NCBI RefSeq assembly: GCF_000020125.1
Contig: NC_010676.1
Location: 1,736,001-1,800,000, forward strand
Source of the DNA: Paraburkholderia phytofirmans PsJN
GTDB lineage: Bacteria > Pseudomonadota > Gammaproteobacteria > Burkholderiales > Burkholderiaceae
DNA: 64,000 bases
Direction of reading: 5' to 3'
Shown here piece by piece: positions 9,535 to 63,845 of this stretch. Within the stretch, counting starts at the first letter, position 1. Each line of letters starts with the position of its first letter. The notes under the pieces were generated by a model. That model ran no database searches. It saw only the letters and a list, made by a program, of their open reading frames with translations, and was not told where the DNA came from. The translations under genes were made by a program, and so were the position numbers.

Positions 9535-10025
9535 TCGGTAAAACGACGAACAGATAGAACGCTGAAATGATAACGCTCGTCGTCGCTGTATTAGCCTGGA
9601 CTGCGCCTGACAGGCAGTCGGGGAAGCTAAGGGAGAAACCGATTCAGTGAGGGATCAGTTTCTCCCCGGCCTGGAATCGCACTACCGATTGGCTTGCTCG
9701 ACCACCCGGCCACACATACGCAGCGCACGTCCACTGCTCAGCCGCTCTGAAACCGGATATTCCATAGCCTGCCTTGATCCAAGTCAACACTCACAAGCGC
9801 ACGTCGCATCATTCTCAGATCGTCAGGGAAGCGCTTTGTATTCCTGCTCGTCGCCCATCGCGTTATATGAGGTTTGCCATGTTCAGCGCAATTCGGAGCG
9901 CAAATGAATTGCGCCTTTCCCCGCAAGATTCGGATGAGCCTGTAGCGAGACGGATTTGCAGTCGCCCCCCTGTCATAAGCCTTCGTTGAACGGCACACTA
10001 GCCCGCCAAGCCAAACGGTAACGAC
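9535..10025. other. gene-poor stretch with one FNR-type box
   Basis: I see no convincing gene here. A 36-codon ORF (9879-9989, plus strand, MFSAIRSANELRL) follows a GAGG motif and lies ~57 bases downstream of the start site predicted from the FNR-type box at 9774; it could be a small protein, but nothing else supports it. Confidence 0.4.
9774..9787. promoter_or_regulatory. FNR/ANR-type box TTGATCCAAGTCAA
   Basis: Exact TTGAY-N4-RTCAA match and the leftmost site of the island. On the plus strand it would drive transcription from about 9822 toward the small ORF at 9879 and the membrane protein at 10026. Confidence 0.6.
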
Positions 10026-10736
10026 ATGCAATCGGCTTTGGTCACCACGAGAGTCGGCACGCAACGGTTCTACGCCGCAGCGAAGTCATCGGCGCAACGC
10101 GTAATCGCCGTCCGCTCGACGAGCGTGAATGTGGGAGCGCGGCGCGCCTGCTCTTGCCGGGACGTTGTCGACTCGATACCAAGGCGCACATGGCCGCAGA
10201 CACCTGGAGAAGTACTGCGTGAGTGCAACGTCGTTCCGTTGCTCGCGGCAAGCATCTATAGTCTGGTCGGCGACATTTTGGAAGCGCTGACTGTGCTCGC
10301 ATGTGTCGTGGCCATTGTTCTGATCAGCGTTTTTCAGAGCCGGCGCACGGCGCGGGCCCTCGACTCTCTGCGGGAGCTTTGGGCCCCGCGCGCGCAGGGG
10401 CTTCGCGATGGGCAAATATGCGTGCTGTTTGCTTGCCTAAAACCCCAGCCGGTCGATCATGCAAAGCAAAAAATCGACATAGGAACGTCGAGCATCGTCT
10501 ATCGCGTAGTTTCTGCAGGTGTCCAGAAGGAGAACCGGCGCGCTTACGTTGGCTACGTGGAAGTTGTCACAGTTGCTTCCGACCGTGCCGTGCGCGCCGA
10601 CGTCCTGCGCTGCGAGCAGGTTAGACCGACCGCTACACTCGCCTATGCGGACGCAATCGGCTTGAAAAAGCGGCTCGAATTAAGCGAAATCGGCGACGCG
10701 AATGCGTTCGGCCAAAGCGCGGACGGTCCGCCGTGA
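10026..10736 (+). CDS. hypothetical protein with one central membrane segment
   Basis: A 236-residue open frame of no recognised family. Residues ~70-103 (LLAASIYSLVGDILEALTVLACVVAIVLISVFQSRR) form a membrane helix. The C-terminal half (GLRDGQICVLFACLKPQ... SIVYRVVSAGVQKENRRAYVGYVEVVTVASDRAVRADVLR) looks like a soluble beta-rich domain. The first ~65 residues are arginine- and serine-rich with poor codon character, so the true start may lie later. It is convergent with the XRE-CRP regulator gene, whose stop lies only a few bases away. Confidence 0.4.
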   Translation: MQSALVTTRVGTQRFYAAAKSSAQRVIAVRSTSVNVGARRACSCRDVVDSIPRRTWPQTPGEVLRECNVVPLLAASIYSLVGDILEALTVLACVVAIVLISVFQSRRTARALDSLRELWAPRAQGLRDGQICVLFACLKPQPVDHAKQKIDIGTSSIVYRVVSAGVQKENRRAYVGYVEVVTVASDRAVRADVLRCEQVRPTATLAYADAIGLKKRLELSEIGDANAFGQSADGPP

Positions 10737-10743
10737 GTGCTCG

Positions 10744-11760
10744 TCAGAATCGGAACAGATGTTCGGACTCGTTCCGGATCACGGCGTAACACCCGCAGAC
10801 CTCGCGCTCCAGCGCGGCGCGGTCGACTACCTGAATTCGCCCTTTACCGTAACGGATCGCGCCCGTACTTTCGACCTGCCTCGCAACCTCCGCGAGCTTC
10901 GCGGTGCGCACGCCAATCATCCGCGCGATCAACGCCTGCGTGACCTCGAATTCGCTCATATCAACACGGTCGAGGGTCATGAGCAACCAGCGGCAAAAAC
11001 GCTGGCTAACCGAATGATGCCGGTTGCACAAGGCTGTCTGCGCCATTTGCGCGATCATCACCTGCGCATAACGAAAGAAGACGGACCGGATGTAACCGCC
11101 TCGTGCCAGTTCTTCCACCGCAAACTCAGCGCTCATCCGATAGGCCACACCGCCGCTTTGCACCACCGCATGGCATGCCGCGGTATCCGCGCCTACGAGC
11201 ACCGGTACGCCAAGCAAACCCTCCCGGCCGATCATCGCGGTCTCCGCGTGACCGCCGCCGTTGGTTGCACGCGTCGTGCAAATCACCGCTGTAGTGGGGA
11301 GATACAGAAGCGTGAGGGGATCGCCCGGCTCATACAACACCTTTCCCGCCAGCATGGAAACCGGCGTCAGATGCGCCTCGATGCGTGCCCACTCTTCACC
11401 ACTCGCGCCGGTCAGCAACCGGTTCCCTCCCTGCACCGGCCGATTGCTTTCAGCCTCGTTATGGGCGCCAACCCTCGCTCGCATGCCGCGGGACACTCGC
11501 TCAGCCAGACTGATGTGCAGACGTTCGAGTTCCGCTCTGTTCTGTTCGGGCAGCAAACTCAGAATCGCCGGCCGGAGCGAGTCATGCCCCAGAGCGTCCA
11601 GAATCTTCAGTTTGGGCAGCGTTCCCAGATCGCTTTTGCCAGTGCGCCACGCCGATATCTGGGCGCGCGTCAAACCGAGGTACTCGGCCAGTTGGGCATC
11701 GCTCCCGAAGTCGCCGAACCGCTTCACGTCGTCATACAGCGCGTGCCAGTCGAATGTCAT
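10744..11760 (-). CDS. XRE-like HTH fused to a CRP/FNR-family regulator
   Basis: 338 residues with three parts. Residues ~5-65 (VKRFGDFGSDAQLAEYLGLTRAQISAWRTGKSDLGTLPKLKILDALG) form a phage-repressor/XRE-like helix-turn-helix. Residues ~117-225 form a cNMP-binding-like beta roll (LAGKVLYEPGDPLTLLYLPTTAVI, then ETAMIGREGLLGVPVLVG). Residues ~255-335 form a CRP-type winged helix (FEVTQALIARMIGVRTAKLAEVARQVESTGAIRYGKGRIQVVD). Ordinary CRP/FNR proteins are ~230-250 residues and lack the first part. The N-terminal cysteine cluster of oxygen-sensing FNR/ANR is not seen, so it is probably not the oxygen sensor itself. A palindrome 25 bases upstream suggests autoregulation. Confidence 0.8.
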   Translation of the reverse strand: MTFDWHALYDDVKRFGDFGSDAQLAEYLGLTRAQISAWRTGKSDLGTLPKLKILDALGHDSLRPAILSLLPEQNRAELERLHISLAERVSRGMRARVGAHNEAESNRPVQGGNRLLTGASGEEWARIEAHLTPVSMLAGKVLYEPGDPLTLLYLPTTAVICTTRATNGGGHAETAMIGREGLLGVPVLVGADTAACHAVVQSGGVAYRMSAEFAVEELARGGYIRSVFFRYAQVMIAQMAQTALCNRHHSVSQRFCRWLLMTLDRVDMSEFEVTQALIARMIGVRTAKLAEVARQVESTGAIRYGKGRIQVVDRAALEREVCGCYAVIRNESEHLFRF

Positions 11761-13123: not shown

Positions 13124-13137
13124 TTGATCGTGATCAA
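13124..13137. promoter_or_regulatory. FNR/ANR-type box TTGATCGTGATCAA
   Basis: Exact TTGAT-N4-ATCAA, centred ~123 bases upstream of the lemA-like start. A class II start site would fall near 13172. Confidence 0.7.
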
Positions 13138-15574: not shown

Positions 15575-15588
15575 TTGATTGAGGTCAA
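15575..15588. promoter_or_regulatory. FNR/ANR-type box TTGATTGAGGTCAA
   Basis: Exact consensus. Centred ~153 bases upstream of the BON gene start on the minus strand, giving a predicted start site near 15540. Confidence 0.65.
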
Positions 15589-15684: not shown

Positions 15685-15698
15685 CTGACGCAGATCAA
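15685..15698. promoter_or_regulatory. FNR/ANR-type box CTGACGCAGATCAA
   Basis: One mismatch to TTGAY-N4-RTCAA. A class II start would fall near 15733, just ahead of the small gene at 15757. Centre-to-centre it is 110 bp from the divergent box at 15575. Confidence 0.5.
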
Positions 15699-17415: not shown

Positions 17416-17611
17416 GGTAAGCCTCGGCTAAGGTTTAGGTTCCTCATTCGTGGGACCGCATTCGTATTCACCGTCAACGCCCGGCGAATCGGTTATCCCT
17501 CGCGTGTGGTTCGAGATTAGGACGGCGCCGCATCCTCTCATTTGACATGGATCATCTGGAGCGGCGTTGCATGCACATGCGGGCGCGTCTGCTGTGACCC
17601 CAGCTTGCCGA

Positions 17612-17625
17612 TTGACGCAAATCAA
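17612..17625. promoter_or_regulatory. FNR/ANR-type box TTGACGCAAATCAA
   Basis: Exact consensus between divergent genes. On the plus strand a class II start falls near 17660, 20 bases before the ACP start; on the minus strand it could serve the CBS-BON gene at a longer distance. Confidence 0.7.
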
Positions 17626-23158: not shown

Positions 23159-23172
23159 TTGACTTGCATCAA
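23159..23172. promoter_or_regulatory. FNR/ANR-type box TTGACTTGCATCAA
   Basis: Exact consensus between atpG and the USP gene. On the minus strand the expected start site is near 23124, serving the USP. Confidence 0.7.
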
Positions 23173-23232: not shown

Positions 23233-24081
23233 TCACGTCGACCGTTGCACCACGCCCGCCGCCAGTTCGACGATATCGGCCGTGATTTCATCCTGACGGA
23301 CCCGGCGGTAACGTTGCGTCAGTTCTTCAAGCGTCTCCTTCACATGGCCGCGTGCGGCCAGCATAGCTCGCACACGCGCTTCGTTTTCCGCAGCGAACGA
23401 GAGCATCAACGCCTCGCACAATTCCACATACACATACGCTTCGATTAGCCCCGAAAGCAGGCGCCCGACGGGCAGCGTCAGTAGAGGCGGCTGATTGCGC
23501 CGCACGACCTGGAAACGCGAAAAATCGAACGGAATAAGACGGTGTTCGACGACTTCGTTATGTGACGCGATCCCGGGCACGGCATGAATGACGCAAACGC
23601 CGGTGATGGGCCGCTGGTCGAGGCGCTGGTAAAGCGCGTCGGTGAGGCGGCTGGCGAGTGTGGGCACATCGTCGGCATGGGAAGCCGCCGGCGAACTCCA
23701 CACGAGCGCAACGCGACGGTCGTGCGCCGCGATCTCACCACGTGTTCCCACCACCAGGAACTCGCAATCCGCCGACGCGTGACGGACTAGCGCGTGGTCG
23801 AGAATCTGCTCGTTGAACGCGCCCACGAATCCTTGCTCCGCGCACAACGCGATAACGATCTGGGTGCCGCGCTCGGGCGTATCCGCCGATGTCCCGGCGC
23901 CATGGGCAAGCACGCCACCGATCGCGGCGCCGACGGTCGACGCCGAGGAGCGAATGCCAGGCAGTCGCCCCTGAGCCTCGCGTGAGCGGGCGGCCGCGAT
24001 GCCGCGCATGGCACCGATGACAGCGTCGAGTTGCTGCGCCGTGGTGCTGCGCGACTCGATTTCCGCAAGTTTGCCGCTCAT
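23233..24081 (-). CDS. atpG: N-type F-ATPase gamma subunit
   Basis: 282 residues. The N-terminal helix ([37 protein letters not shown]) and the C-terminal helix ([56 protein letters not shown]) form the coiled-coil shaft that turns inside the alpha3beta3 head. It is the last gene of the nine-gene operon, overlapping the atpA stop by 4 bases. It is divergent from the housekeeping gamma, as is typical for N-ATPases. Confidence 0.9.
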
Positions 24082-25655
24082 CGCGCGAGATCCAGATCGG
24101 ACGCAACGTTAGCGGCGCGAAGTGTCAATTGCTGAACGAGTTCGCGGACCGTGGCGATCAACTCGGCCGGAGTGTCCGTGTCAGACGACTTGGCCGATAT
24201 TCGCGCGCATGCTTGCGGAAGCTCGGATCGCACGTGCTGACCCTGCGCTCGCGCAACCAGTTCCGTGCGCACCTGTGCGGCGATCCCGGCTGGCACCGCA
24301 TCGAAAACGGCCGCCGCCAGCGCGGCAAGCAAAGCAATTTCGTCGACGGTGCGTAATGCGCTAAAGCGCGGTTGTGCGATCAGCGCCCTGATGCGTTGAC
24401 CACGGGCGATTTTCCCGGCAACGTGCGCGTCCGTCAGACCGCCGAAGCGGCTGAACATTTCCAGTTCGAGGAACTGTGCGTAATCGAGGCGCAGGCGGCC
24501 CGATACCTCCCGCAAAGCCGGATGTTGCGCCTTGCCGCCAACCCGGCTCACGCTCAAACCAATATCGACGGCCGGCCGCTGATTCGCGGCAAACAGCGCG
24601 GCGTCCATCACAATCTGGCCGTCCGTAATCGAAATCAGGTTGGTTGGGATGTAGGCGGACAGGTTACCCGCGTCGGTTTCCGCAATCGGCAGCGCGGTGA
24701 GCGAGCCGCCTCCCAGTTTCGTCGAGAGCCTGGCCGCGCGTTCGAGCAGGCGCGCATGAACATAAAAGATATCGCCGGGATACGCCTCGCGCCCCGGCGG
24801 TTCGCGCGTGAGCAGCGCCAGTTCGCGATGAGTCGCGGCATGTTTGGTGAGGTCGTCGATGACGACTAGAGCATGCTGTCCGCGATCACGAAAATACTCG
24901 GCAACCGTGATGCCCGCAAACGGAGCAATCCACTGCAACCCCGGCGCCGACGCGGCGGTAGCCACCACAAAAATGCAGCGCTCCGGCGCACCGTACTGAC
25001 GGACGGCTTCGATCACCCGTTGCACGGCAGTCGTGCGCTGGCCGATCGCCACATAGACGCAAATCATGTCCGACTGCTTCTGGTTGACAATCGCGTCGAT
25101 CGCCAGGGAGGTCTTGCCGGTGGCGCGATCGCCGATAATCAACTCGCGCTGGCCGCGGCCAATGGCGAACAGCGCGTCGACGAGCAGCACGCCGGTTTCG
25201 ACCGGTTCGCTGACCAGATCGCGCTCGACAATCGACGGCGCAGGCCGTTCGGCGGGCATGCGCATCGCCGCCACGATCGGCTCGTCACGGTCGAGTGGCC
25301 GCCCGAGCGGGTCGATCACGCGGCCCAGCAAGCCTTCGCCGACTGGCACTTCAAGCACGGTGCCGGTACGCGTCACGCGCGCGCCCGCTTCAATCGCGCC
25401 GTCGTTGTCGAGCAGGACGACACTGACCTCATCGGCGTCCAGCGTATGGGCAAAGCCTGTCGCTCCGCTTTCGAAGCGCAGCAGTTCATTGAGCGCTGCG
25501 TCCGGCAGTCCCGAGACGAACGCGATGCCGTCACCGACACGTTCGACGCGCCCGAGCGTTTCGGCCTGCGCAGTAATCGAAGTGCGCGCCAGCGTGAGAC
25601 GCTGCTGCGCGAGCCATGGATCGTCGGCCGTCTCAGGCGGGAACATGGTCGCCAT
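24078..25655 (-). CDS. atpA: N-type F-ATPase alpha subunit
   Basis: About 525 residues. The non-catalytic nucleotide-binding head subunit shows Walker [14 protein letters not shown], the block [55 protein letters not shown], and the alpha signature [38 protein letters not shown]. Start taken at ATG 25655 ([20 protein letters not shown]), overlapping the end of atpF. Part of the second ATP synthase operon, which in this family lacks a separate delta gene. Confidence 0.93.
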
Positions 25656-26391
25656 CCAGCAGCACTGCCGTAATCCGCGCAAGATCGCCGCCAAAGCTGT
25701 TACGCACGACGGCGTGGGGCGCCCGCAATTCGAGTCCGGCAATCACTTGAGGATCGACCTCGAACTGAAGCGGCACAACCCGCTGCAAACAGTTCGTGAC
25801 CACTTCCTGGCAGCGAGCCTGTTCCTCCGGGCGCAGCAGGCGCGGCGCGGCGAGCACGAGGGTCGCGCAGTTCGCGCCGAGTTGCATGCGAACAGCTTCA
25901 GGCAGTTGCGCAATGCCGGCGGCGAGACCATCGATAAAGCCTGTTACGGACAGGCTCTCGGGCAGCCTGGCAAGTAACTTTGCTGCGATATCGACAGCAA
26001 GCCGGGTCGCCCGGCGCGCCGCGAGCTTGTCCTGTTCGACACGTTCGGCTTCGGCTTCGGCGCCCGCGGCGGCGCGCAACCTCGCGGCTTCCGCCTGCGC
26101 CGCGGCGAGCAGCGCGGACTTCTCCTGAGCCGCTTCCGCCGCGATCTTTTTCATGGTGTCGTCACGCGCGGCGATGATCTGCAGCGTTTCGCGAGCCGCT
26201 GTGTCGCGTTCGAGAAGCGCCGCCTGCTTCGCCGCATCAGCTTCGCCGATGAGTGCCTGCGCCGCCTTCTGCCGCTCGGCAATGATTTGCGAGACCGGCC
26301 GGAACAGGAAACGCGCCAGCAGCCAGATCAGGACCAGTGCATTGATTGTCTGCAAGGCGAGCGTCGACCAGTCGATTCGCATGAGCGCCAC
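25633..26391 (-). CDS. atpF: N-type F-ATPase b subunit with delta-like C-terminal extension
   Basis: 252 residues, much longer than the usual ~156. An N-terminal membrane helix ([20 protein letters not shown]) and a long charged coiled coil ([23 protein letters not shown]... [24 protein letters not shown]) form the peripheral stalk. The last ~100 residues ([22 protein letters not shown]..., ending [27 protein letters not shown]) resemble the C-terminal part of OSCP/delta. The operon has no atpH, so this extension probably replaces it. Confidence 0.88.
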
Positions 26392-26640
26392 CTATTTGAC
26401 GAACGGGTTGGCAAAGAGCAGCAACAAGGCAATCACAAGACAATAGATCGCCATCGTCTCGATCATGGCCAAGCCCACGAACAGGGTACGCGATACGGTG
26501 CCCGCCGAATCGGGCTGCCGCGCGATCGCGTCCATCGCGGCGGCGACCGCGCGGCCTTCCGCCAACGCCGGGCCGATCGCGCCGAACGAAACGGCAAGCG
26601 CCGCGGCTGCAATGCTCACGATTTCGATGAGGTTATTCAT
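26392..26640 (-). CDS. atpE: N-type F-ATPase c subunit (rotor ring)
   Basis: 82 residues forming a two-helix hairpin. The ion-site carboxylate is Glu61 in MIETMAIYCLV. A second carboxylate, Glu28 (GPALAEG), sits where Na+-binding c subunits have glutamine; Thr62 and Tyr66 are also retained. The polar loop is ARQPDSAG. Two carboxylates per subunit are known for the N-ATPase c ring of Burkholderia pseudomallei, reported as a proton-binding 17-mer. Proton use here is inferred from that similarity. Confidence 0.93.
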   Translation of the reverse strand: MNNLIEIVSIAAAALAVSFGAIGPALAEGRAVAAAMDAIARQPDSAGTVSRTLFVGLAMIETMAIYCLVIALLLLFANPFVK

Positions 26641-27335
26641 AAGGCTTCGCCTTTTTTTACGCTAGCGTGGTGAGGGGTATCGTTGATTGCCGCGCCTATG
26701 AAAACCATCGCCAGCACGGCAAAAATGTAGGCTTGCACGGCGCCCGTCAGCAGGTCCAAAGCCATTAGCGGAATGGGAACGAGCAGCCCGGCTAGTGACA
26801 GGATGATGCCGACCACGAACACGCCGCTCATCACGTTGCCAAACAGCCGCACCACGAGAGAGAACGTCCGCGTGATCTGCTCGACGAGGTTCAGGGGAAT
26901 CATCACCCAGCTCGGCTCGGCGAAGGCCGCGAAATAACCCGCCATGCCGCGCGTACGAATACCGTGGAACACCGTGGCGCCTAGCACGATCAGCGCGAGT
27001 GCGGCATCCGTTTCGAGGTGCGCGGTGGGTGGCGTCACGCCCGGCAGCAGCGCGCACCAGTTGGCAATCAGCACGAAGAGGAATAGCGTGCCGATCAATG
27101 CGCGATACGTGGTCGGAGCGGTTTGCATGGTGTCGCGGATTTGCTGATCGATCGTCTCGACCAGCAGTTCGAGCGCGGTCTGCACCTTGCCGGCCGTCAG
27201 CGACAGATTGCGGCAGAGAAAGGCCGACACCGCCGTGACAACGGCCATGATGGCCCAGGTTGCCAGCACGGGCTCGGTGATCGCAAGTGGGCCGAGGTGC
27301 AGAAGCGGCGCGGTAGCTAGCGGTGAAGCGGTCAC
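26637..27335 (-). CDS. atpB: N-type F-ATPase a subunit
   Basis: 232 residues, a multi-spanning membrane stator half-channel. The essential arginine lies in VVRLFGNVMSGVFVVGIILSLAGL, and the C-terminal helix is QAYIFAVLAMVFIGAAIND. Start is GTG at 27335, overlapping the atpR stop by 4 bases; the stop overlaps atpE in the same way. The order atpR-atpB-atpE is diagnostic for N-ATPase operons. Confidence 0.93.
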   Translation of the reverse strand: MTASPLATAPLLHLGPLAITEPVLATWAIMAVVTAVSAFLCRNLSLTAGKVQTALELLVETIDQQIRDTMQTAPTTYRALIGTLFLFVLIANWCALLPGVTPPTAHLETDAALALIVLGATVFHGIRTRGMAGYFAAFAEPSWVMIPLNLVEQITRTFSLVVRLFGNVMSGVFVVGIILSLAGLLVPIPLMALDLLTGAVQAYIFAVLAMVFIGAAINDTPHHASVKKGEAL

Positions 27336-27613
27336 GGTCTGCCTCGCTGGCAGCGAATCGCGATCGTTCGCATGAGCAGGATGCCGGCCATGCCGGCCAG
27401 CAGGGCAAGCGCGCCGGCGTGTGCGAGCATCAGAAGAAGCGCACCAGTCAGGGCGAAGCGGGCAAGCTGGAGCACGAGCGCCGCTGCCGCCCTGCCCTGT
27501 GCAAAAAGCGGCCAGTTCCAGCGCAGCGAGAGGAACTGCCAGGCGCCGGCCAGCATGCCGACGCTGAGTCCCATGGCAAACTGCGCCGCGAATGACGGCG
27601 ATGGACTAATCAT
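27332..27613 (-). CDS. atpR: N-ATPase accessory membrane subunit AtpR
   Basis: 93 residues and about three membrane helices (FAAQFAMGLSVGMLAGAWQFLSLRWN; AAAALVLQLARFALTGALLLMLAHAGALALLAGMAGILLMRTIAI). AtpR occurs only in N-ATPase operons, between atpQ and atpB, and is thought to interact with the c subunit during assembly. It has conserved arginines within hydrophobic segments, as here. Confidence 0.85.
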   Translation of the reverse strand: MISPSPSFAAQFAMGLSVGMLAGAWQFLSLRWNWPLFAQGRAAAALVLQLARFALTGALLLMLAHAGALALLAGMAGILLMRTIAIRCQRGRP

Positions 27614-27919
27614 GGTGCCCTCGTTGTTGACGATGCATCCACTTCCACGCCGACCAGAAGCCGACTGCGGCGCCGATCATCAGGAGCGGCGCCGAGAAGA
27701 ACACGCGCGTGCCAAAAGCGCGATCCAGCCAATGGCCGATCGCGAGTCCCAGCAACGTCGGCAGAACGATTGCCCAGCCGAGGATGCCGATCTGGCCAAG
27801 CCGGCTGCCCAGAGACGGCTCGGGATCAGCGCGCCCATGCGCGTCACGCGCGGCGGCGTGGCGGGCTGCACCGGCCATGCGGTCGTCGCCCGATTTGCGC
27901 CTGTCGGGAAGCTGCGAGT

Positions 27920-27923
<4 letters not shown>
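27606..27923 (-). CDS. atpQ: N-ATPase accessory subunit AtpQ (AtpI-like)
   Basis: 105 residues: a charged N-terminal tail, then two membrane helices (IGILGWAIVLPTLLGLAIGHWLDRAF and FFSAPLLMIGAAVGFWSAWKWMH) with the glycine-rich AtpI/AtpQ pattern. These small proteins help ring assembly or Mg2+ supply for F-ATPases. The start ATG (27923) overlaps the atpC stop. The reading frame is open further upstream inside atpC, but the arginine-rich reading there is spurious. Confidence 0.85.
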
Positions 27924-29958
<2,035 letters not shown>

Positions 29959-42155: not shown

Positions 42156-42164
42156 GGGGCGGCC

Positions 42165-43073: not shown

Positions 43074-43154
43074 CGAAATACCATCCGGGTTTCGAACAAA
43101 AGAAGTCCTTGTGGACACCATCGGCGCATACCTTTCCAGGTTCAAGGGGCCACC

Positions 43155-44630: not shown

Positions 44631-44644
44631 TTGATCTGAATCAA
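44631..44644. promoter_or_regulatory. FNR/ANR-type box TTGATCTGAATCAA
   Basis: Exact, nearly symmetrical consensus. A -10-like TAAACT lies at 44666-44671, the correct class II distance; the predicted start is near 44679, 39 bases before the USP gene. Confidence 0.8.
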
Positions 44645-47593: not shown

Positions 47594-47692
47594 GACATTC
47601 TCCTGGGAACTTCACCCGAAGCGCTTGAGTTTGGGCGAGAGGCACATGGAAGTTCAGTTTGCGGTTCAAAGCCGAAATACGCTTGATGCGGA

Positions 47693-47706
47693 TCAAGCGA
47701 CGGGCG
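47693..47706. promoter_or_regulatory. FNR/ANR-type box TTGATGCGGATCAA
   Basis: Exact consensus. Minus-strand start predicted near 47658, 65 bases before the USP ATG. Confidence 0.75.
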
Positions 47707-47831: not shown

Positions 47832-48100
47832 ATGCAATTACCTGAACAACACCTTGGCGCTCGCATCCAGTGGGACGTGAAGCGCGACATCGAATTGGGC
47901 GACACGCATTTTTCGCCGGCTCGAGCAATCACTCTGTTTCGTATCTTGCAGAAGGCGTTGACCGACGTCACCCGCCATGCGGAGGCCGCCGTCACCTGCT
48001 GGGCGGCGACGTGGAGATTCATACTTCAAATAACAATGGCTTTGAGCTGACCGTGACCTTGCCGGACACGGCCGTTCAGGAAGAGGAGACGCAAGAATGA
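47832..48100 (+). pseudogene. remnant of a NarX-type histidine kinase
   Basis: The first frame gives YLN-like leader, DIELGDTHFSPARAITLFRILQKALTDVTRHAEA, which is the N-box of a HATPase_c domain. The frame is then lost. From ~48002 another frame gives LLGGDVEIHTSNNNGFELTVTLPD, the kinase's last beta strands, ending in a TGA that overlaps the response-regulator ATG. The G-boxes, H-box and sensor domain are gone. The kinase once coupled to the regulator gene is therefore dead. Confidence 0.75.
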
Positions 48101-48744
48101 CCCGAGTGCTGATAGCCGACGACCACGCGTTGGTGCGCGACGGCCTGCGCCATATCCTGCAAAGCACGAGCGGCTTCGAAGTGGCCGGCGAAGCCAGCGA
48201 CGGCTCCAGCACGATCGCGCTGGTCCGCTCCAGGCCGGCCGAAGTGCTCGTGCTGGATCTGTCCATGCCAGGGCGCAACGGCGTTGAACTGATCAGGCAG
48301 ATCAAAGACGAAATGCCAGCGCTGCGCATTCTCGTGCTCACCATGCACGCGGAGCAGCAGTACGCGGTGCGTGCGTTCAAGGCAGGCGCCTCAGGGTACC
48401 TCACCAAGGAAAGCGCCAGCGCGGAACTTGTGTCGGCAGTCTCCAAGGTCGCTTCCGGAGGCGTCTACGTGAGCCTCGCCATGGCCGAGCGTTTCGCGCA
48501 GAGCCTGAACGAGCCCGGCGACGCGCTGCCCCATCAGCGCCTCTCAGACCGTGAATTCGACGTGTTTCGCCGCATCGTCGCAGGCCAGACCCTCACGGAA
48601 ATCGCCACCGAGTTGTGTGTCAGCAGCAAAACGGTCAGCACTTACAAGACACGCATCCTCGAAAAAATGCAGATGCCGCATGAGGCCGCGCTGGTGCGTT
48701 ACGCGCTGCGCCACAAGCTGCTCGGCGAAGACGACGAAATCTGA
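48097..48744 (+). CDS. NarL/FixJ-type response regulator
   Basis: 215 residues. Receiver domain with acidic pocket IADDHALVRDGL, phosphoacceptor Asp54 in VLVLDLSMPGRNG, and lysine in YLTKESAS. The C-terminal LuxR helix-turn-helix (LSDREFDVFRRIVAGQTLTEIATELCVSSKTVSTYKTRILEKM) binds DNA. The resemblance of its scheme to hypoxia regulators such as DosR is only at family level. Its adjacent kinase is destroyed; the PAS kinase at 20016 is the only other histidine kinase seen in the window. Confidence 0.93.
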   Translation: MTRVLIADDHALVRDGLRHILQSTSGFEVAGEASDGSSTIALVRSRPAEVLVLDLSMPGRNGVELIRQIKDEMPALRILVLTMHAEQQYAVRAFKAGASGYLTKESASAELVSAVSKVASGGVYVSLAMAERFAQSLNEPGDALPHQRLSDREFDVFRRIVAGQTLTEIATELCVSSKTVSTYKTRILEKMQMPHEAALVRYALRHKLLGEDDEI

Positions 48745-48832
48745 CGGCGCCGCGCGCGCTGCCGTTTCCGGGTTGCTCGCCTCCGTTCCTCCGCTGTCTA
48801 GCTGAGGAACACCATCTCGCGAATACCGCCAA

Positions 48833-48846
48833 TTGATCTGAGTCAA
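48833..48846. promoter_or_regulatory. FNR/ANR-type box TTGATCTGAGTCAA
   Basis: Exact consensus. A -10-like CAGGAT at 48868-48873 and a predicted start near 48881 fit the Acg-like gene at 48916. Confidence 0.78.
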
Positions 48847-48915
48847 GCCCTTCACGGCGCGGTCTGACAGGATGGTCTGACGCGACATAACTGACACCGC
48901 GCCAGGAGACACCGA

Positions 48916-50407: not shown

Positions 50408-50421
50408 TTGATGCAGATCAA
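50408..50421. promoter_or_regulatory. FNR/ANR-type box TTGATGCAGATCAA
   Basis: Exact consensus. On the minus strand it would serve the DUF1488 gene, with a start near 50373. It is 66 bp from the divergent box at 50474. Confidence 0.7.
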
Positions 50422-50473: not shown

Positions 50474-50487
50474 GGTTGATTTGAGTC
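50474..50487. promoter_or_regulatory. FNR/ANR-type box TTGATTTGAGTCAA
   Basis: Exact consensus. Predicted plus-strand start near 50522, 36 bases before the nitroreductase ATG. Confidence 0.75.
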
Positions 50488-50557
50488 AAGCGCCGAGCGC
50501 CGCAACGGTGCACGATGATTACATGTGGTCTGCCGTTCCCGCTTGTGTGAGGCACTC

Positions 50558-51642: not shown

Positions 51643-53139
51643 TCATTGGTTGCTTTCCCATCCCCCGCCCAACGCCGCATACAGCGCCACGGTATCCTGC
51701 AACCGTTGCGCCACCCCCTGCAGCCATGCGATGCGCGCCTGATGAAACAGTCCGTCCGCAATCAATGTCTGCACATAGCCGACCGTACCGGCCGCATAGT
51801 CCGCCTCGACGAGCCGGAGTGCTTCGGCGGCAGCGTCCCGTGCGCGCGTTTGCGCGTCGAGCGCCTGGGCATCGTTTTCGAGCGCCCGCAGCGTGTCCGC
51901 CACCTGTGCAAAAGCACTGAGCACCACTTGCCGGTATGAGGCGCGCGTCTGTGCGTAGGCATTGAGCGCCGCACGGCGCTGAAACCAGAGTGTGCCGCCA
52001 TGGAAGACGGGCGCGCTCACGTCGGCCGCGATCGTCCATATCTGACCGGAGCGGTGAAGCAAAGCGCTCATCGACGTGTTGTCGTAACCGCCCGAAGCGG
52101 AAAGCGTCACACCGGGCAGCAAATTGGCGGTGGCGACGCCGATATTGGCGCTCGCGACATGGAGTGCCGCCTCCGCCTGCAGGATGTCGGGACGTCGCCG
52201 CACGAGAGAAGCCGGCACGGTCTCGGGCAAGGTATGCGGCAACGTAATATCCTCCAACGACAGATCCGGCGCGTGCCACTCGACCGGCAGCATGCCCGAG
52301 AGCGACGCGAGCAGGTCTTCCGCTTGCGCGCGCTTCTGTTCGAGCGCGGGCAGCGACGCTTCGAGCGTGGCCAGTTCGTTTTCCAGCGTCAGCACAGCGG
52401 CATACGCGCTTGCACCCGCCTCGACCTGCGCTTGCGTAATGCGGATCTGTTCATGCACCAGAGCGGTCATCTCACGGGTCGCTGCAATTTCATCGCGATA
52501 GGCCGCGCGCGCGATCATCGCATTGACCACGTTGACGGTCAGCGTGAGATAGGTGGCCAGCACCGTGTAACGCTGAGCATCGACACGCGCCTGCAACGCT
52601 TCAACCATGCGGCGCTGGCCGCCCCATATATCGAGCGCATAGCTCACGCTCGCCGACAGCGTAAAGAGGTTGAAAAGGGTCGACGGCTCGTTAGCGCCGA
52701 TCCGCGAGGGCGAATATTTCTGCCGCGACCCAGCAAAGCCCGCATCGACCTGCGGGTAGAACACGCCGGCGCCGGCGCGCATCTCATCCTCACTCTGGCG
52801 TAGCGCGGCCTGCGCGCCTTCGATTGTCGCGTTGCCGGTTAGGGCTTCATCCACCGCGCTGTCGATCGCCAACGAGCCAAAACGCGTCCACCAGTCGGAC
52901 GGCACGTTCGTTTGCGCGGAAAAAGTTTGCACGCTGCCTGCTGCCTGCAGCGGTGTGCGAAGCGCGTCACCTTGCACGAACCGATCGACTCCCGGCGACG
53001 GCGGCCGGGAGAAATCCGGGCCCACGCTGCAGGCGTTGAGCAGTAGCGCCAGCAACAGAGCCCAGGCGCGAGCGACGCGACGGCGCACGGTGTCGGCCCT
53101 GCGCGCGCGGGGTGCGCTATCCGGCGGCAATGTAGACAT
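51643..53139 (-). CDS. outer-membrane efflux channel (NodT/OprM-type lipoprotein)
   Basis: 498 residues. Lipoprotein signal ending LLALLLNAC (Cys37), then CSVGPDFSRPPSP, standard for NodT factors. Two TolC repeats follow: WWTRFGSLAIDSAVDEALTGNATIEGAQAALRQSEDEMRAGAGVFYPQVDAGF, and PASLVRRRPDILQAEAALHVASANIGVATANLLPGVTLSASGGYD. Trimeric channel for the ABC exporter encoded upstream (HlyD adaptor, ATPase, permease), forming an envelope-spanning efflux system. Confidence 0.92.
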   Translation of the reverse strand: MSTLPPDSAPRARRADTVRRRVARAWALLLALLLNACSVGPDFSRPPSPGVDRFVQGDALRTPLQAAGSVQTFSAQTNVPSDWWTRFGSLAIDSAVDEALTGNATIEGAQAALRQSEDEMRAGAGVFYPQVDAGFAGSRQKYSPSRIGANEPSTLFNLFTLSASVSYALDIWGGQRRMVEALQARVDAQRYTVLATYLTLTVNVVNAMIARAAYRDEIAATREMTALVHEQIRITQAQVEAGASAYAAVLTLENELATLEASLPALEQKRAQAEDLLASLSGMLPVEWHAPDLSLEDITLPHTLPETVPASLVRRRPDILQAEAALHVASANIGVATANLLPGVTLSASGGYDNTSMSALLHRSGQIWTIAADVSAPVFHGGTLWFQRRAALNAYAQTRASYRQVVLSAFAQVADTLRALENDAQALDAQTRARDAAAEALRLVEADYAAGTVGYVQTLIADGLFHQARIAWLQGVAQRLQDTVALYAALGGGWESNQ

Positions 53140-54202
53140 CGACTAATTGTCCTGGGTAAAGGTGCGCGCCTTTGGGCAGCGCGACACGAAAAATGACCGG
53201 CAGCACGCGCACGTCGACACGCTCCGCTCGCTGATCGGACAGTTCGACTTTCGGACTCACGTAAGGCTGAATCCGGACAAACTCCAGCGGCGCTTCGATC
53301 CGGGTGCCGCGCACGGACATGCGCGCTTTCAACGCATGCGGGTCCGGCAGACGGTCGATCAGGATCTCGTCGACGTAGCAGCGCACGGCCAGTTGACCGT
53401 TTGGCGCGCCGATCACGAGCACGGGCGCTTGCCCCTGCGTGTAGGGCTGATAGACGCCTTGCGGAGACACATACGATCCAGCAGCCGCATTGACCGACAG
53501 CACCACACCGTCGCTGGGGGCGCGAAGCGTGTACTGGGCGACCAGCGCGTCGGCGGAAGCGGCCGCCTTGCGCAGCGCGTCGACCTGCTTCTGCTGGCTG
53601 CGAATGTCGTAAATCCATGCGCCTGCCTGAGTGAGCCGGTACTGTCGCGTCACCACGTCGAGATTGGCTCGCGCCATTTTCAGCGCGTTCGCCGCGTTGT
53701 CCAGCGTGTCCTTGCTGACCGCCTTCGGGTCGATGGCGAAGGCGCGCTGCTGTTTGTCGAACTGGTCCTGCGCCATCCTGAGACCGGCCGCCGCCGCACC
53801 CACCTGGGCACTCGCCACATCGAGCGTCTCCTTGCGCGGCTGCGATTCGAGCTCGTCGAGCATCGCCGCAGCGGCTTCCGCCTGGGCGGCAAGCTGTGCC
53901 GCGGTAGCGCGTTGCACCGAATCGTCGATGGTAAGCAGCACCTCGCCGGCCTTCACCGCTTGTCCCTCGCGGGCGGCGATGCCCGTCACGGCGCCGGTCA
54001 CGTTCGGATAAATGTTGATGTTGACGCCCGCAGGCTGATCGCTTTCGACAATGCCCTCGGCGTACAGCCCGTGTGCATAGGGGTTGGACGCGGGTGTGAA
54101 CACAGGCGGCTGCGGAGCTTGCTGCACACCGTACACGTAGGCGGCTACCAGACCTGCCACGAAGCCCAGGAACGCAAGAACAAAGATCAGCTTGCGCTTC
54201 AT
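53117..54202 (-). CDS. HlyD/MacA-type membrane fusion protein
   Basis: 361 residues. One N-terminal membrane helix (LIFVLAFLGFVAGLVAAYVYGV). Lipoyl halves at GIVESDQPAGVNINIYPNVTGAVTGIAAREGQAVKAGEVLLTIDD and YTLRAPSDGVVLSVNAAAGSYV, separated by a long coiled-coil hairpin (AAQLAAQAEAAAAMLDELESQPRKE...). It links the ABC permease to the outer-membrane channel. Overlaps the ATPase gene by 4 bases upstream and the channel gene downstream. Confidence 0.92.
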   Translation of the reverse strand: MKRKLIFVLAFLGFVAGLVAAYVYGVQQAPQPPVFTPASNPYAHGLYAEGIVESDQPAGVNINIYPNVTGAVTGIAAREGQAVKAGEVLLTIDDSVQRATAAQLAAQAEAAAAMLDELESQPRKETLDVASAQVGAAAAGLRMAQDQFDKQQRAFAIDPKAVSKDTLDNAANALKMARANLDVVTRQYRLTQAGAWIYDIRSQQKQVDALRKAAASADALVAQYTLRAPSDGVVLSVNAAAGSYVSPQGVYQPYTQGQAPVLVIGAPNGQLAVRCYVDEILIDRLPDPHALKARMSVRGTRIEAPLEFVRIQPYVSPKVELSDQRAERVDVRVLPVIFRVALPKGAHLYPGQLVDVYIAAG

Positions 54203-54897
54203 TTGGCGCCTCCCGGGTCGATCCCTTTGAGTTGGCCGTCTTCCATGCGCAGAATGCGGTCGGCGTAATCGAAAATACGGCTGTCGTGCGTGACGATCAG
54301 GATGCAGCGATTGTCATTGAGCACCTGATGCTTGACGAACTCGATGATGCTGCGGCCCGTATCGCCGTCGAGCGAGGCCGTGGGTTCATCGAAGATCAGG
54401 ATGTCGGGCTGGCTGACGATTGCCCGGGCGATCGCCACGCGCTGCTGCTCGCCGCCGGACAGTTTCACCGGCGGCAATTGAGCGCGGCTTTCGAGGCCGA
54501 CTATCTTCAGGTACTTGAGCGCCTCGTCAATGGCGGCATTCCACGGCTGCCGTTTGAGGATCAGCGGTATCGCAACATTTTCGGCGGTCGTCAAGCGCGC
54601 GAACAGGTGGTAGTCCTGAAACACGAAGCCAATGCGGTTGAGCCGGAATTCCGCGATCGCGTCGTTCGGCTGTTTCCACAGATCGACTCCATCGACCACG
54701 ACATCGCCGCTGTCCGGTCTCAGGATGCCCGAAATGACACTCAGCAAGGTCGTCTTGCCACTGCCCGATGGACCGACGATCAGCAGCATCTCGCCGAACC
54801 TGGCCTGCACCGAGACCTCGCGCAAAGCACAGGTTCGTGCTTCGCCCTCGCCGAACCATTTCGTCACCGCACGCGCGTCGATGGCAAATTTCGGCAT
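54199..54897 (-). CDS. ABC transporter ATP-binding protein (DevA/MacB type)
   Basis: 232 residues. Walker A is GPSGSGKTTLLSVIS, Q-loop FVFQDYHLFARLT, signature KLSGGEQQRVAIARA, Walker B ILIFDEPTASLD, H-loop VTHD. Powers the exporter with the FtsX-like permease encoded just upstream. The gene set permease-ATPase-HlyD-NodT resembles DevBCA-type exporters of glycolipids or other envelope molecules. Confidence 0.94.
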   Translation of the reverse strand: MPKFAIDARAVTKWFGEGEARTCALREVSVQARFGEMLLIVGPSGSGKTTLLSVISGILRPDSGDVVVDGVDLWKQPNDAIAEFRLNRIGFVFQDYHLFARLTTAENVAIPLILKRQPWNAAIDEALKYLKIVGLESRAQLPPVKLSGGEQQRVAIARAIVSQPDILIFDEPTASLDGDTGRSIIEFVKHQVLNDNRCILIVTHDSRIFDYADRILRMEDGQLKGIDPGGAK

Positions 54898-54898
54898 G

Positions 54899-56035
54899 TC
54901 AGCCCCGAAAAATATCGAAGGGTTCGATGCTCAATACGCGTCGAATGCCCAGGTAGCTCGACATCGCGGCAATCACCACCACCATGGCGAACGCAAGCGC
55001 CAGATTGCCGAAGGTGATGATTGCCGCGTAATCGGGAATGCGTATCCTGGCGAGACTGATCAGCGCCGCGCACAGGCCGATGCCGAGGCCATAGCCGGTC
55101 AGCGCCGTAAAGGTGGCCTGAAACAGGATCATCGCGATCAGCTCATGGCGTTTCGCGCCAATCGCCTTCAGCGCACCGAACTTTTCGAGGTTTTCGAGGA
55201 TGAACGTATAGAACGTTTGCCCCGAGATGGACAACCCGACAATGAAACTGATGACCGTCATCAGCATGATGTTGGTGCCAAGGCCGGTTTCGTATTTATA
55301 GAAATGCGAAATGCGCGCCATGAATTCCTTTTTCGTGAACGCGACGTAGCCGAGCGATTGCACCACCTGTTTGATGTGCGCGATATCCGCAGCGGATTTT
55401 GGTTCAACCAGGATGTACGAGGTCGTGTAGCGGGTCGTGGGGATATAGGTAACGGCGCGTTTGTAAGTGGTGTAGAGCGTGGGTGTGCCAAAGAGACCGC
55501 TGCTCGCCACCGTCGCGATGCCGACTATCACGCCGCGATGGTCGTTCAGTTCGAAATCGGTGCCGAGTGTCGGGTTCTTCAGCTTGACGAATTCGGCGTC
55601 GTCGATAGCGACAAAGCCATTCTCCGCGTAAATGTCTTCGATCTTGCCCTGCTTCATGACCGGCCAGCCGAACAGGCTGGCGTCGTCGAGTCCGATCACC
55701 GTGACTGCCTGATAGGTGCCGTCGCGCAGTTTGACCAGCGCGGTGCCTGAGTACAGCGGCACCGCGTATTTGACGCCGTCGGTGCTGCGTACCGCATCGA
55801 GTACGTAATCCGGCATGCCGATGCTGCTCGCGATGGTCTGCACTGCCGGGTCCATCACCCACATCTTCGCCCCGACATTGATCACCGTCGACGACGATTT
55901 GTTCAGGATGCCGGCAAACAGCGAAGTCATTTCGACCATCAAAAAAACCGCGAATGTAATGCCGACGAGCAGTGCCGTGAATTTGGCGCTGTCGTTGACG
56001 AGCAGCTTGAATGCGAGTTGGAGGATGCCTTTCAT
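54899..56035 (-). CDS. ABC transporter permease (FtsX/DevC type)
   Basis: 378 residues. N-terminal membrane helix (FTALLVGITFAVFLMVEMTSLFAGIL), large periplasmic domain, then three helices (NIMLMTVISFIVGLSISGQTFYTFILENL; LIAMILFQATFTALTGYGLGIGLCAAL; AIITFGNLALAFAMVVVIAAMSSYLGIRRVLSIEPFDIFRG). The EP-x-D-x-x-x-G end is typical of FtsX-like permeases. Second gene of the operon after a small membrane protein. Confidence 0.92.
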   Translation of the reverse strand: MKGILQLAFKLLVNDSAKFTALLVGITFAVFLMVEMTSLFAGILNKSSSTVINVGAKMWVMDPAVQTIASSIGMPDYVLDAVRSTDGVKYAVPLYSGTALVKLRDGTYQAVTVIGLDDASLFGWPVMKQGKIEDIYAENGFVAIDDAEFVKLKNPTLGTDFELNDHRGVIVGIATVASSGLFGTPTLYTTYKRAVTYIPTTRYTTSYILVEPKSAADIAHIKQVVQSLGYVAFTKKEFMARISHFYKYETGLGTNIMLMTVISFIVGLSISGQTFYTFILENLEKFGALKAIGAKRHELIAMILFQATFTALTGYGLGIGLCAALISLARIRIPDYAAIITFGNLALAFAMVVVIAAMSSYLGIRRVLSIEPFDIFRG

Positions 56036-56388: not shown

Positions 56389-56402
56389 TTGATTTGCATC
56401 AA
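56389..56402. promoter_or_regulatory. FNR/ANR-type box TTGATTTGCATCAA
   Basis: Exact consensus serving the minus-strand exporter operon. Centre 108 bp from the divergent box at 56497. Confidence 0.78.
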
Positions 56403-56496: not shown

Positions 56497-56510
56497 TTGA
56501 TATGCATCAA
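56497..56510. promoter_or_regulatory. FNR/ANR-type box TTGATATGCATCAA
   Basis: Exact consensus. A -10-like CATAGT lies at 56532-56537, start near 56545, giving a ~140-base leader before acs. Confidence 0.78.
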
Positions 56511-61541: not shown

Positions 61542-61555
61542 TTGATTTGTATCAA
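61542..61555. promoter_or_regulatory. FNR/ANR-type box TTGATTTGTATCAA
   Basis: Exact consensus. Predicted minus-strand start near 61507, upstream of phaC. Confidence 0.75.
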
Positions 61556-61610: not shown

Positions 61611-61624
61611 TTGACGCGCGTCAA
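61611..61624. promoter_or_regulatory. FNR/ANR-type box TTGACGCGCGTCAA
   Basis: Exact and perfectly palindromic. A -10-like TATGGT at 61647-61652 and a start near 61659 suit the nitroreductase gene. 69 bp from the box at 61542. Confidence 0.75.
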
Positions 61625-62381: not shown

Positions 62382-62568
62382 AGCGACGGGACAGGCAACG
62401 TGACTGTTGTTTGCGCTGTCCCTGCTTGCGAGCCCAGGGAGCCAGAACCGGCAGCGACCGGAAAACGGCGACCCGGCTTTCTGCGCGCCGCTCGCCGCAC
62501 GCGCGGTGTCGATTGCCCGACAACCGGCACTGCATCATCGGCAGCATGCCTGCTCTGAAGAGGCGCCC

Positions 62569-63834
62569 ATGTGGTATGACCTACTCGATATACAGCGTCG
62601 CCTCGCCAAAGCGTTCATCGATGCCGCGCTCACCGTCAGCGGATTGGATGGCGCTCAGTGGGGGACAGCCGGCGCACCCCGTGCCGCGCGCGATTGGCTG
62701 ATCCGGTCCACATGCGCCTTTGAAACCGCTCCGCCGTTCGCGATAAAAGCGGTGCACAGCAACGGCAAATATCTTCCCGTGGAAGAAAGCATTGCCGACG
62801 AAATGCCGGTCGGCACGCTGCGCAAATTCACACGTAGCAGCTGTGTTGCCGACCCGCCCGGGACGCGCCCCATTATTCTCTGCGCTCCGCTCGCGGGCCA
62901 TCACGCAGTGATGCTGCGGGAAACGGTCGAAACATTGCTCGAACGCTGCAACGTCGTCTACATCACCGACTGGGCCGACGCGCACGACGTGCCGCTCGAA
63001 GCCGGCCCGCTTCCATTGACGGACTACGTCCACGCGCTCGAACGCTTCATTTGCACGGTGCGGGCAGGCGGAGCGCCGGCGCATGTCGTCGCCGTCTGCC
63101 AGGCCTGTGTCCCCGCCCTCGCCGCCTGCAGTCTGCTGGCAAGCAACGGGACACCGCCGTTCGCCAGTGTCTCGCTGCTTGGCGGACCGATCGACACCCG
63201 CCTGCATCCGACTTCCGTGGATCGCTTTGCAAGCGCGCAGCCGTTACGCTGGTTTCACGATCGTGTAATCGACGAAGTGCCGCCGCCATACGCCGGGGCG
63301 GGACGCCGTGTCTATCCGGGTTTCATGCAGCAGGTTGCCATCCTGGCTGCGCACCCCGCGCGTCAACTCGATCTGGAGGCGCGCTACTGGACGAATTGGC
63401 TCGGGGGCAATCTGCACGACGCGCAAACGGCGCTTCGTTCGCTGAACGAGTATGCCGCCGTGCTTGACATGGGCGAACGTTACTTTCTGGATATGCTCAG
63501 CGTAGTCTTCCACGAGCACCTGCTTGCGCGAGGAATGTGGGTAATCGATGGGCGGTGCGTGGATCCCCGCGTCCTCGATCAAGTGCCGCTCTGCACGATC
63601 GAGGGCGACCGCGACGACATTACGGGCGCGGGCCAGACGCATTGCGCGCACGCGCTATGTCATGCACCGGGCGCGCCGGGGCATCGGCGCGTGACCATCG
63701 ATCAATGCGACCATTACGACCTGTTCACGGGTCCGCGCTGGCACGACGCGGTTCATCCTGAGTTATGCAGCTTCTGGCGCGCGATCGCATGCGATAGTGA
63801 AGCGAAAGCCGCGCCGGCCGCCAGCATTCGATGA
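62569..63834 (+). CDS. phaZ: intracellular polyhydroxyalkanoate depolymerase
   Basis: 421 residues. MWYDLLDIQRRLAKAFIDAA is the typical PhaZ start. The nucleophile cysteine lies in VCQACVPALAA, Asp in IEGDRDDITGAGQT and His in IDQCDHYDLFTGPRW. Degrades native PHB granules inside the cell. AAGAGG lies seven bases before ATG 62569; the frame is open upstream but not coding-like there. It follows the nitroreductase by ~190 bases and may share its promoter. Together with phaB, phaC and the phasin it completes a PHA storage cycle. Confidence 0.9.
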   Translation: MWYDLLDIQRRLAKAFIDAALTVSGLDGAQWGTAGAPRAARDWLIRSTCAFETAPPFAIKAVHSNGKYLPVEESIADEMPVGTLRKFTRSSCVADPPGTRPIILCAPLAGHHAVMLRETVETLLERCNVVYITDWADAHDVPLEAGPLPLTDYVHALERFICTVRAGGAPAHVVAVCQACVPALAACSLLASNGTPPFASVSLLGGPIDTRLHPTSVDRFASAQPLRWFHDRVIDEVPPPYAGAGRRVYPGFMQQVAILAAHPARQLDLEARYWTNWLGGNLHDAQTALRSLNEYAAVLDMGERYFLDMLSVVFHEHLLARGMWVIDGRCVDPRVLDQVPLCTIEGDRDDITGAGQTHCAHALCHAPGAPGHRRVTIDQCDHYDLFTGPRWHDAVHPELCSFWRAIACDSEAKAAPAASIR

Positions 63835-63845
63835 TCCATATCAAG
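63832..63845. promoter_or_regulatory. FNR/ANR-type box ATGATCCATATCAA
   Basis: One mismatch to consensus, overlapping the phaZ stop codon. Predicted start near 63880, 34 bases before the MBL-fold gene. Identical 14-mer to 37827. Confidence 0.55.

Follow-up and report, generated by a model that had tools for sequence, protein, structure and literature searches.

What controls a large accessory gene island when no regulator of the expected kind is encoded within it? This question is raised by a 64,000-nucleotide stretch of the Paraburkholderia phytofirmans PsJN genome (contig NC_010676.1, here C1, positions 1,736,001 to 1,800,000; referred to as the window, with features numbered from its first letter). 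Most of this stretch is occupied by an island that resembles the low-oxygen-activated (lxa) locus of Burkholderia cenocepacia. We read it as an lxa-type island wired by FNR class II promoters that respond to an FNR whose gene lies at another genomic location, a reading to which we give a probability of roughly 0.86. In FNR/ANR class II promoters, a TTGAT-N4-ATCAA palindrome is combined with a -10 hexamer at a fixed distance. The boxes, their spacing, enrichment and conservation, the remnant of a regulatory cassette and two FNR lineages are all visible in the sequence, and they are set out below.

Strictly spaced predicted promoters across the island

A pattern scan finds 18 exact TTGAY-N4-RTCAA boxes (TTGAYNNNNRTCAA) in the window, starting at 9774, 13124, 15575, 17612, 23159, 30025, 32941, 34455, 35515, 44631, 47683, 48833, 50408, 50476, 56389, 56497, 61542 and 61611, together with 12 one-mismatch boxes. 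Shuffled versions of the window hold 4.34 exact and one-mismatch boxes jointly on average and 8 at most, against 30 in the real sequence, and 60 first-order Markov copies hold a mean of 0.22 exact boxes and never more than one. The whole genome (8,214,658 bases, three contigs) contains 50 exact boxes and nine matches to a reversed-pattern control. The 18 in the window, which makes up 0.78% of the genome, compare with 0.39 expected (Poisson 5e-24). Of the others, two lie within about 17 kb to the right (C1:1806781 and C1:1817100), where the island continues past the window, three beside an FNR gene at C1:2.57-2.58 Mb and 27 elsewhere, so that 20 of the 50 fall within 71 kb. No exact box occurs in the first 9.7 kb of the window, where a one-mismatch box stands at 2472, or in the 20 kb to its left. 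With the same caller of open reading frames (ORFs), 4 of the 18 window boxes lie inside a called ORF (two of them in the doubtful gene 50257-50583) versus 18 of the 27 elsewhere, the latter as chance sites would be expected to do. An island of about 70 kb appears to hold most of the strong low-oxygen-type promoters of this genome, and palindromic boxes in the window are more frequent than chance.

A preliminary description of this DNA, made from the sequence alone, had listed the same 18 exact boxes, and all were recovered. The genome-wide scan shows that such a density is not general in this genome. Its total of 23 boxes stands for the exact sites, its five one-mismatch sites becoming 12, and its claim of a box-free first 9.7 kb is correct for exact sites, with the site at 2472 as the one-mismatch exception. 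The statement that most boxes lie about 70-85 bp before a start codon does not hold up: this is true of 4 of the 15 exact boxes with an assigned gene, the median distance being 107.5 bp (range 61.5-411.5 bp, with gene starts chosen by the analyst).

To measure the spacing between box and -10 hexamer, TAnnnT was scored in 318 distinct box flanks from 37 sources: the window, the stretch to its right, the plasmid pOLGA1 and another 34 loci from Burkholderiaceae. The motif stands exactly 21 nucleotides (nt) from the box in 84 flanks, at 22 nt in eight, and in about one flank at most other distances. It is because of this peak at exactly 21 nt that the class II reading holds. A second, small and unexplained peak at 68-69 nt (7 and 8 flanks, 15/318) may come from paired boxes. 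A -10 model trained on other genomes, without the window, supports 15 of the 18 exact window boxes, support being a score within the top 3% of the model's null in at least one direction. It predicts promoters in roughly half of the flanks, the proportion to be expected if a box acts chiefly in one direction. The four -10 hexamers named in the preliminary description are all present, three at 21 nt and GCTAAT at 22 nt.

Perfect composites of box, 21-nt spacer and TAnnnT number 11 in the genome: seven in the window, two just to its right, two beside the FNR gene 0.8 Mb away, and none elsewhere. One-mismatch composites number 24, with 11 in the window, two in the right flank, one in the FNR cluster and ten on contig C3, eight of these ten lying inside called ORFs (for some, the position used is the midpoint of the stretch retrieved). 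At two mismatches there are 135 and 125 composites on the two strands versus 48 and 48 for the reversed pattern. Strong class II sites therefore seem nearly confined to the island and the FNR cluster, and weaker or differently built targets may exist elsewhere. The mechanism would be that of other FNR/ANR class II promoters. Unlike in usual class II regulons, however, the perfect sites of this 8.2 Mb genome are limited to a single accessory island and the neighbourhood of a single FNR gene.

The promoters are also kept before orthologous genes in other genomes. In 55 loci, the scan covered 250 bp of sequence ahead of every orthologue, with identical upstream stretches counted once (two dropped), and a promoter was called conserved when a box with at most one mismatch had a -10 toward the gene. 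Among lead genes, the promoter is conserved before USP-c, the first of three universal stress protein genes at 44718-46943 (28/29 distinct orthologues), and likewise before the Zn-alcohol dehydrogenase (13/15), flavodoxin (7/7), Acs (6/6), nitroreductase-3 (5/5), USP-f (universal stress protein gene 47117-47593; 4/4), Acg (11/14), CBS-BON (13/18) and potassium channel (8/11) genes. Genes that look internal to operons score 0/19 (USP-e), 0/7 (YaaH), 0/18 (USP-b), 0/18 (small99), 0/27 (response regulator) and 2/14 (USP-d), and random stretches of the same loci, promoters included, score 3.9%. This amounts to a promoter-level account of how an lxa-type island could act as a unit: most operons have an FNR promoter of one strictly spaced design, which would let the island bring its own wiring and need only an FNR protein.

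Could the enrichment simply reflect the lower GC content or the long intergenic regions of acquired DNA? GC content is a little lower across the island than in the window's first 6 kb, which is what such an artefact would need. However, the same half-sites at spacings N3, N5 and N6, and the reversed pattern, give no match at all in the window, and neither the 21-nt distance to the -10 nor its conservation before orthologues can arise from composition. The spacing controls rule this explanation out, and its probability is next to nothing.

An lxa-type locus with an N-type ATPase

By its gene content, the island is an lxa-type locus to which an arginine deiminase operon and an N-type ATPase have been added. 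The lxa locus is described in PMC4981469 and PMC6127331 (after Sass et al. 2013) as about 50 genes, BCAM0275A-BCAM0323, in B. cenocepacia J2315. Pfam domains of the window proteins agree closely with the published lxa gene table. Shared with that table are six universal stress proteins, BON-domain proteins, PhbB, PHA polymerase, phosphotransacetylase, Zn-alcohol dehydrogenase and nitroreductase-like proteins, as well as a metallo-beta-lactamase-fold protein, here at the right edge and named by eye. The sixth universal stress protein (47117-47593) was called by similarity to the other five and not by Pfam. In the window, the universal stress protein cluster stands together with BON, PHB, phosphotransacetylase, alcohol dehydrogenase and efflux genes. 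The efflux set (51643..56035, minus strand) encodes an outer-membrane efflux protein, a HlyD-type protein, an ABC ATPase and a MacB-like permease, and B. contaminans and B. multivorans are listed with the same OEP/HlyD/ABC set in their lxa regions. Two lxa features, Hsp20 and DUF1488, are absent from the 50 window proteins scanned with Pfam.

Irregular presence and predicted CRP/FNR-family regulators are further points in common with lxa, for which BCAM0049, BCAM0287 and BCAM1483 are named as predicted regulators. The patchy distribution is evident in composite promoter counts of 2-84 per genome across 58 genus genomes. A homologous island is carried by plasmid pOLGA1, with IS66, IS4 and IS5 transposase genes around and inside it, and for one island gene the nearest relatives that carry a name belong to Paraburkholderia. 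In addition, B. puraquae CAMPA 1040 is reported to hold lxa, and the locus fetched from this strain has eight exact boxes in 20.6 kb. Together with the matching gene list, this identifies the island as lxa-type. The preliminary description had proposed a regulon here and had left its known counterpart, lxa, unnamed. What sets this island apart from the lxa table is the N-type ATPase and the arginine deiminase operon, along with the loss of the island's own FNR gene, discussed below.

The N-type ATPase operon (23233..29853, minus strand) has nine genes in the order beta, epsilon, two small genes, a, c, b, alpha and gamma, and is colinear with its counterpart on pOLGA1. Its first gene starts 60 nt after a one-mismatch box (29914..29927, minus strand) that has a TATCGT hexamer at 21 nt. 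The nine-gene layout with beta and epsilon in front is characteristic of N-type ATPases. According to PMC5376962, the B. pseudomallei enzyme is likewise encoded by nine genes, with those for beta and epsilon shifted to the start of the operon, and occurs in addition to other ATPase operons, as here.

A close N-type beta subunit is encoded in 45 of 144 genus genomes. This genus search replaced an order-wide one whose cut-off was too strict and which found only the PsJN genome among 200. The 30 best-scoring loci of the 45, the one studied here included, were examined for promoters. In 24 of the 30, an exact or one-mismatch box stands 57-83 nt before the start and is paired with TATC[GTC]T at a distance of precisely 21 nt, a combination seen in none of 30 control stretches from inside the gene. 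The remaining six loci have no box even at two mismatches. Paraburkholderia xenovorans LB400, a soil strain that like P. graminis shares parts of the island, carries this ATPase promoter.

The cellular functions of N-type ATPases are called largely unexplored in PMC5376962, which proposes, speculatively, proton homeostasis during infection; the words 'anaerobic' and 'oxygen' are absent from the main text of that paper. Unlike that setting, as described there, the operon studied here lies within a low-oxygen island, under a predicted FNR-type promoter conserved in the genus. This promoter is new and suggests a low-oxygen role, a prediction for a group of enzymes that has so far been little explored. 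In the literature searched, which left most subscription papers outside, there was no report of class II spacing in lxa-type islands or of an FNR-controlled N-type ATPase.

Which FNR may act on the island

The genome has two FNR genes, neither of them in the window: the core FNR at about C1:322,034 (minus strand) and an island-type FNR at C1:2,581,378-2,582,163 (plus strand). Both products have a C-x2-C-x5-C pattern and a fourth cysteine. The preliminary description was right that the window encodes no such regulator, but this is incomplete: relatives carry an FNR gene inside the island, and a remnant of the cassette that holds it can be found at 47862-48915. In the colinear island of pOLGA1, genes for a kinase, a response regulator, a receiver and an FNR lie between USP-f and Acg. 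The same two neighbours flank the remnant in the window. There, the sensor kinase is reduced to two C-terminal pieces without the middle (47862..48076, plus strand; 62-64% identical, 70% against the pOLGA1 kinase). A LuxR-type response regulator gene remains as an open frame and an orphan of the cassette (48097..48744, plus strand), and the gap that follows (48745..48915) is 171 bp long, where pOLGA1 has, between the same neighbours, 1,701 bp that include the receiver and FNR genes. A CRP/FNR-family gene beside the response regulator, a feature of lxa, where BCAM0288 is adjacent in numbering to BCAM0287, is thus missing from the window and present in pOLGA1 and 19 of 20 relative loci.

In a DNA tree, the window response regulator groups with six island-type copies and two unlabelled ones (95/93; group of nine), and the copy beside the second FNR of the genome falls in another group (98/97); a protein tree leaves the window copy unplaced (37/29). 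Given the split in the DNA tree and the cassette remnant, the island probably once carried a kinase-regulator-receiver-FNR cassette that has since been lost, and the FNR at C1:2.58 Mb is probably a paralogue from a separate, smaller cluster and of a different FNR sub-lineage. A decayed cassette where relatives carry FNR, with a kinase stub and an orphan regulator left behind, is a new element of this analysis, and it offers a natural case of an island without its regulator that has kept its promoters.

The two FNR genes belong to lineages that differ in their surroundings. In 20 pairs of loci, chosen from the 58 genus genomes by identity to one FNR query, boxes occur around the island-type FNR in 20/20 (92 boxes in 394 kb) and around the core FNR of the same genomes in 5/20 (five boxes in 382 kb), and five other spacings combined give four boxes in each set. 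The FNR tree separates the lineages at 100/100, a clean split that is partly built in, as labels were preset by identity to one query. An island-type FNR, defined by a 60% identity cut, is present in 31 of the 58 genomes, and the median number of composite promoters is 23 with it (n=31) versus 5 without it (n=27; Mann-Whitney 4e-8, kinship uncorrected, and one box may count twice when two spacings fit). One genome at 59% identity (G048) counts as lacking the gene here, yet serves as island type among the 20 pairs. A further new element is that an FNR lineage which is linked to the island and separate from the core FNR appears to go with promoter number across the genus. The stretch around the core FNR also holds a universal stress protein homologue in 20/20 loci, and a universal stress protein near anr2 is described for B. 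cenocepacia H111 in PMC9104464.

Two alternatives concern the protein that binds the boxes. Half-sites of this kind are common to the Crp/Fnr family, and a FixK-, Dnr- or CRP-like protein acting through a two-component relay, in place of an oxygen-labile FNR, might occupy them. The genome has ten HTH_Crp_2 matches above cut-off (two of them GntR- and MarR-like by eye), a response regulator and a PAS kinase are present in the window, and BCAM0049 is discussed as a homologue of a FixK under FixLJ in PMC6127331. The two best family matches, however, show the cysteine arrangement of FNR, and the island-linked protein is far closer to solved FNR (194 bits) than to FixK2 (91) or CRP (45). The Crp/Fnr-family protein encoded at 10744-11760 in the window matches cNMP only below threshold and lacks C-x2-C-x5-C, and box density goes with FNR lineage across genomes, all of which makes a non-FNR regulator improbable. 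FNR/ANR-type class II control, as proposed in the preliminary description, is strongly supported at the sequence level by the box itself, the strict 21-nt spacing, orientation toward genes, conservation before lead orthologues and two four-cysteine FNRs. It could still be the core FNR, and not the paralogous island-type FNR, that drives the island in this genome. The core protein is present with all four cysteines and has the same ETVSR sequence, which we take to lie in the recognition helix. Deletion of both anr genes abolished anoxic survival in B. cenocepacia H111, according to PMC9104464. By contrast, composite promoter counts follow the island-type FNR, as given above, and boxes cluster around its gene and not around the core gene. 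The core FNR is the less likely driver, though a more serious candidate than a non-FNR protein.

Predictions about binding, oxygen response, the acting FNR and physiological role draw on the sequence together with the general biology of FNR. When oxygen falls, an FNR from elsewhere in the genome would gain its iron-sulphur cluster and dimerise, bind TTGAY-N4-RTCAA sites whose centres lie about 40.5-41.5 bp upstream of the start site, and recruit RNA polymerase to a weak TAnnnT -10. With the island cassette reduced to a stub, the paralogous cassette 0.8 Mb away would be the likeliest source of the regulator, and the core FNR the second candidate. Arginine deiminase and phosphotransacetylase could then provide ATP and the N-type ATPase ion pumping, while PHB and acetate metabolism, nitroreductases, dehydrogenases, universal stress and BON proteins would fit anoxic survival. 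A wider account, which we offer tentatively and hold at somewhat below even odds, is one of two FNR systems: a core one with few detectable class II targets, and an island-linked lineage whose regulon would be the accessory island and would travel with it. The island FNR would have been lost here and the island run in trans by the paralogous satellite cassette, with the N-type ATPase in its output as a low-oxygen ion pump using ATP from arginine and acetyl phosphate. A comparable box, TTGATCTCGATCAA, is proposed as an Anr site for cytochrome bd of B. cenocepacia H111 in PMC9104464; it is a single target there, whereas boxes here cluster in the island and at the FNR locus.

Several observations weigh against the picture of an FNR-wired unit. 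The -10 model leaves the exact boxes at 9774, 17612 and 50408 unsupported, and the exact box at 30025..30038 (plus strand) has a rightward TAAGCT with no convincing gene downstream on that strand. Promoter conservation is mixed before PhbB (9/17) and hyp115 (8/15), nil before MaoC-Pta (0/4), and poor before USP-a (universal stress protein gene 22543-23040; 1/5), nitroreductase-2 (5/12), ArcD (1/3) and BON2 (14/36). Two-mismatch composites were counted genome-wide and not all listed individually. In the window, the sensor kinase at 20016, the potassium channel, the lipocalin and the BON gene at 30577 have no box, and the view of the whole island as one oxygen-controlled regulon, put forward in the preliminary description, is a prediction to be qualified to that extent. 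Work on B. contaminans indicates that oxygen may not be the sole control. No empty site was found either: against a genome without an FNR of at least 60% identity (G020), only about 1 kb, a quinone reductase gene, aligned (matches above 150 bp).

Boxes and genes along the window

From left to right, the island begins with the exact box TTGATCCAAGTCAA (9774..9787), its leftmost, where the -10 is unconvincing. The exact box at 13124..13137 (plus), with TATCGT 21 nt away, faces a gene for a putative lipoprotein (13254-13913). At 15575..15588 (minus), TAGGCT faces a BON-domain gene (14778-15428), and a one-mismatch box at 15685..15698 (plus) has TATGCT toward a small ORF (15757-16074). A one-mismatch box at 17542..17555 (minus) precedes the CBS-BON gene (16723-17415) with TAATCT at 22 nt, and the exact box at 17612..17625 (plus) stands 61.5 bp before an acyl-carrier/AMP-binding ORF with a weak -10. 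Overlapping frames in this region (17542-19157) encode parts of a carrier domain, a short AMP-binding domain and an acyltransferase, a pattern that would fit an internal deletion in a longer gene.

The exact box at 23159..23172 (minus) has GATCAT toward USP-a. Beyond the ATPase operon, three exact boxes on the minus strand face leftward genes: 32941..32954 (TAAAGT; Zn-alcohol dehydrogenase gene 31832-32872), 34455..34468 (TACATT; PhbB-like reductase gene 33304-34050, with a long leader) and 35515..35528 (GATGAT; hypothetical gene 35035-35382 and universal stress protein gene 34518-34976). Rightward -10s at 30025-30072 and 32988-33036 face stretches without a convincing gene and may drive non-coding transcripts; Rfam at gathering threshold finds no RNA family in either.

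A one-mismatch box at 37827..37840 (minus) has TATGCT toward a flavodoxin-like gene (37226-37738). Another at 38321..38334 (plus), with a weak GCTAAT at 22 nt, stands 67.5 bp before arcD, the start of the arginine deiminase operon (38395..44558, plus), which encodes a permease, arginine deiminase, ornithine carbamoyltransferase, carbamate kinase and a MaoC-phosphate acetyltransferase fusion. The exact box at 44631..44644 (plus; TAAACT) leads into the three universal stress protein genes headed by USP-c, and that at 47683..47696 (minus; CAAACT) into USP-f. On the far side of the cassette remnant, 48833..48846 (plus; CAGGAT) precedes a nitroreductase-family gene at 48916-49947, labelled Acg by the analyst. 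The box at 50408..50421 is without a convincing -10, and 50476..50489 (plus; CACGAT) precedes a nitroreductase gene (50558-51229).

Right of the efflux set, 56389..56402 (minus; GATGAT) faces a DUF2964 gene and 56497..56510 (plus; CATAGT) an acetyl-CoA synthetase gene (56688-58664) with a YaaH-type transporter. The last pair consists of 61542..61555 (minus; TAGCCT), before a PHB synthase gene (59458-61317), and 61611..61624 (plus; TATGGT at 22 nt), before a nitroreductase gene (61713-62381) followed by a PHB depolymerase gene.

Some minor observations concern the edges of the island and the wider family of regulators. A 134-bp piece resembling bacterial 23S rRNA (8832-8965, minus; Rfam RF02541, 56.1 bits) lies just left of the island, and to the right of the last exact box an ORF at C1:1821576-1821866 resembles a transposase fragment by eye and may mark the right end. 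No tRNA gene was found in the five stretches scanned. The Crp-like protein encoded at 10744-11760 (minus) has an N-terminal extension that resembles a second helix-turn-helix by eye and lacks the FNR cysteine pattern. At C1:2580955-2582163, a receiver-like domain and the island-type FNR share one open frame, relatives showing a stop or separate matches, and the usual phospho-acceptor aspartate of this domain is apparently replaced (by eye). The FNR may also be made alone, as a Shine-Dalgarno-like AGGAG precedes its start within the joined frame. Outside the island, an exact box at C1:974019 lies 194 bp upstream of a gene that looks cydA/cioA-like by eye and is a possible target of the core FNR.

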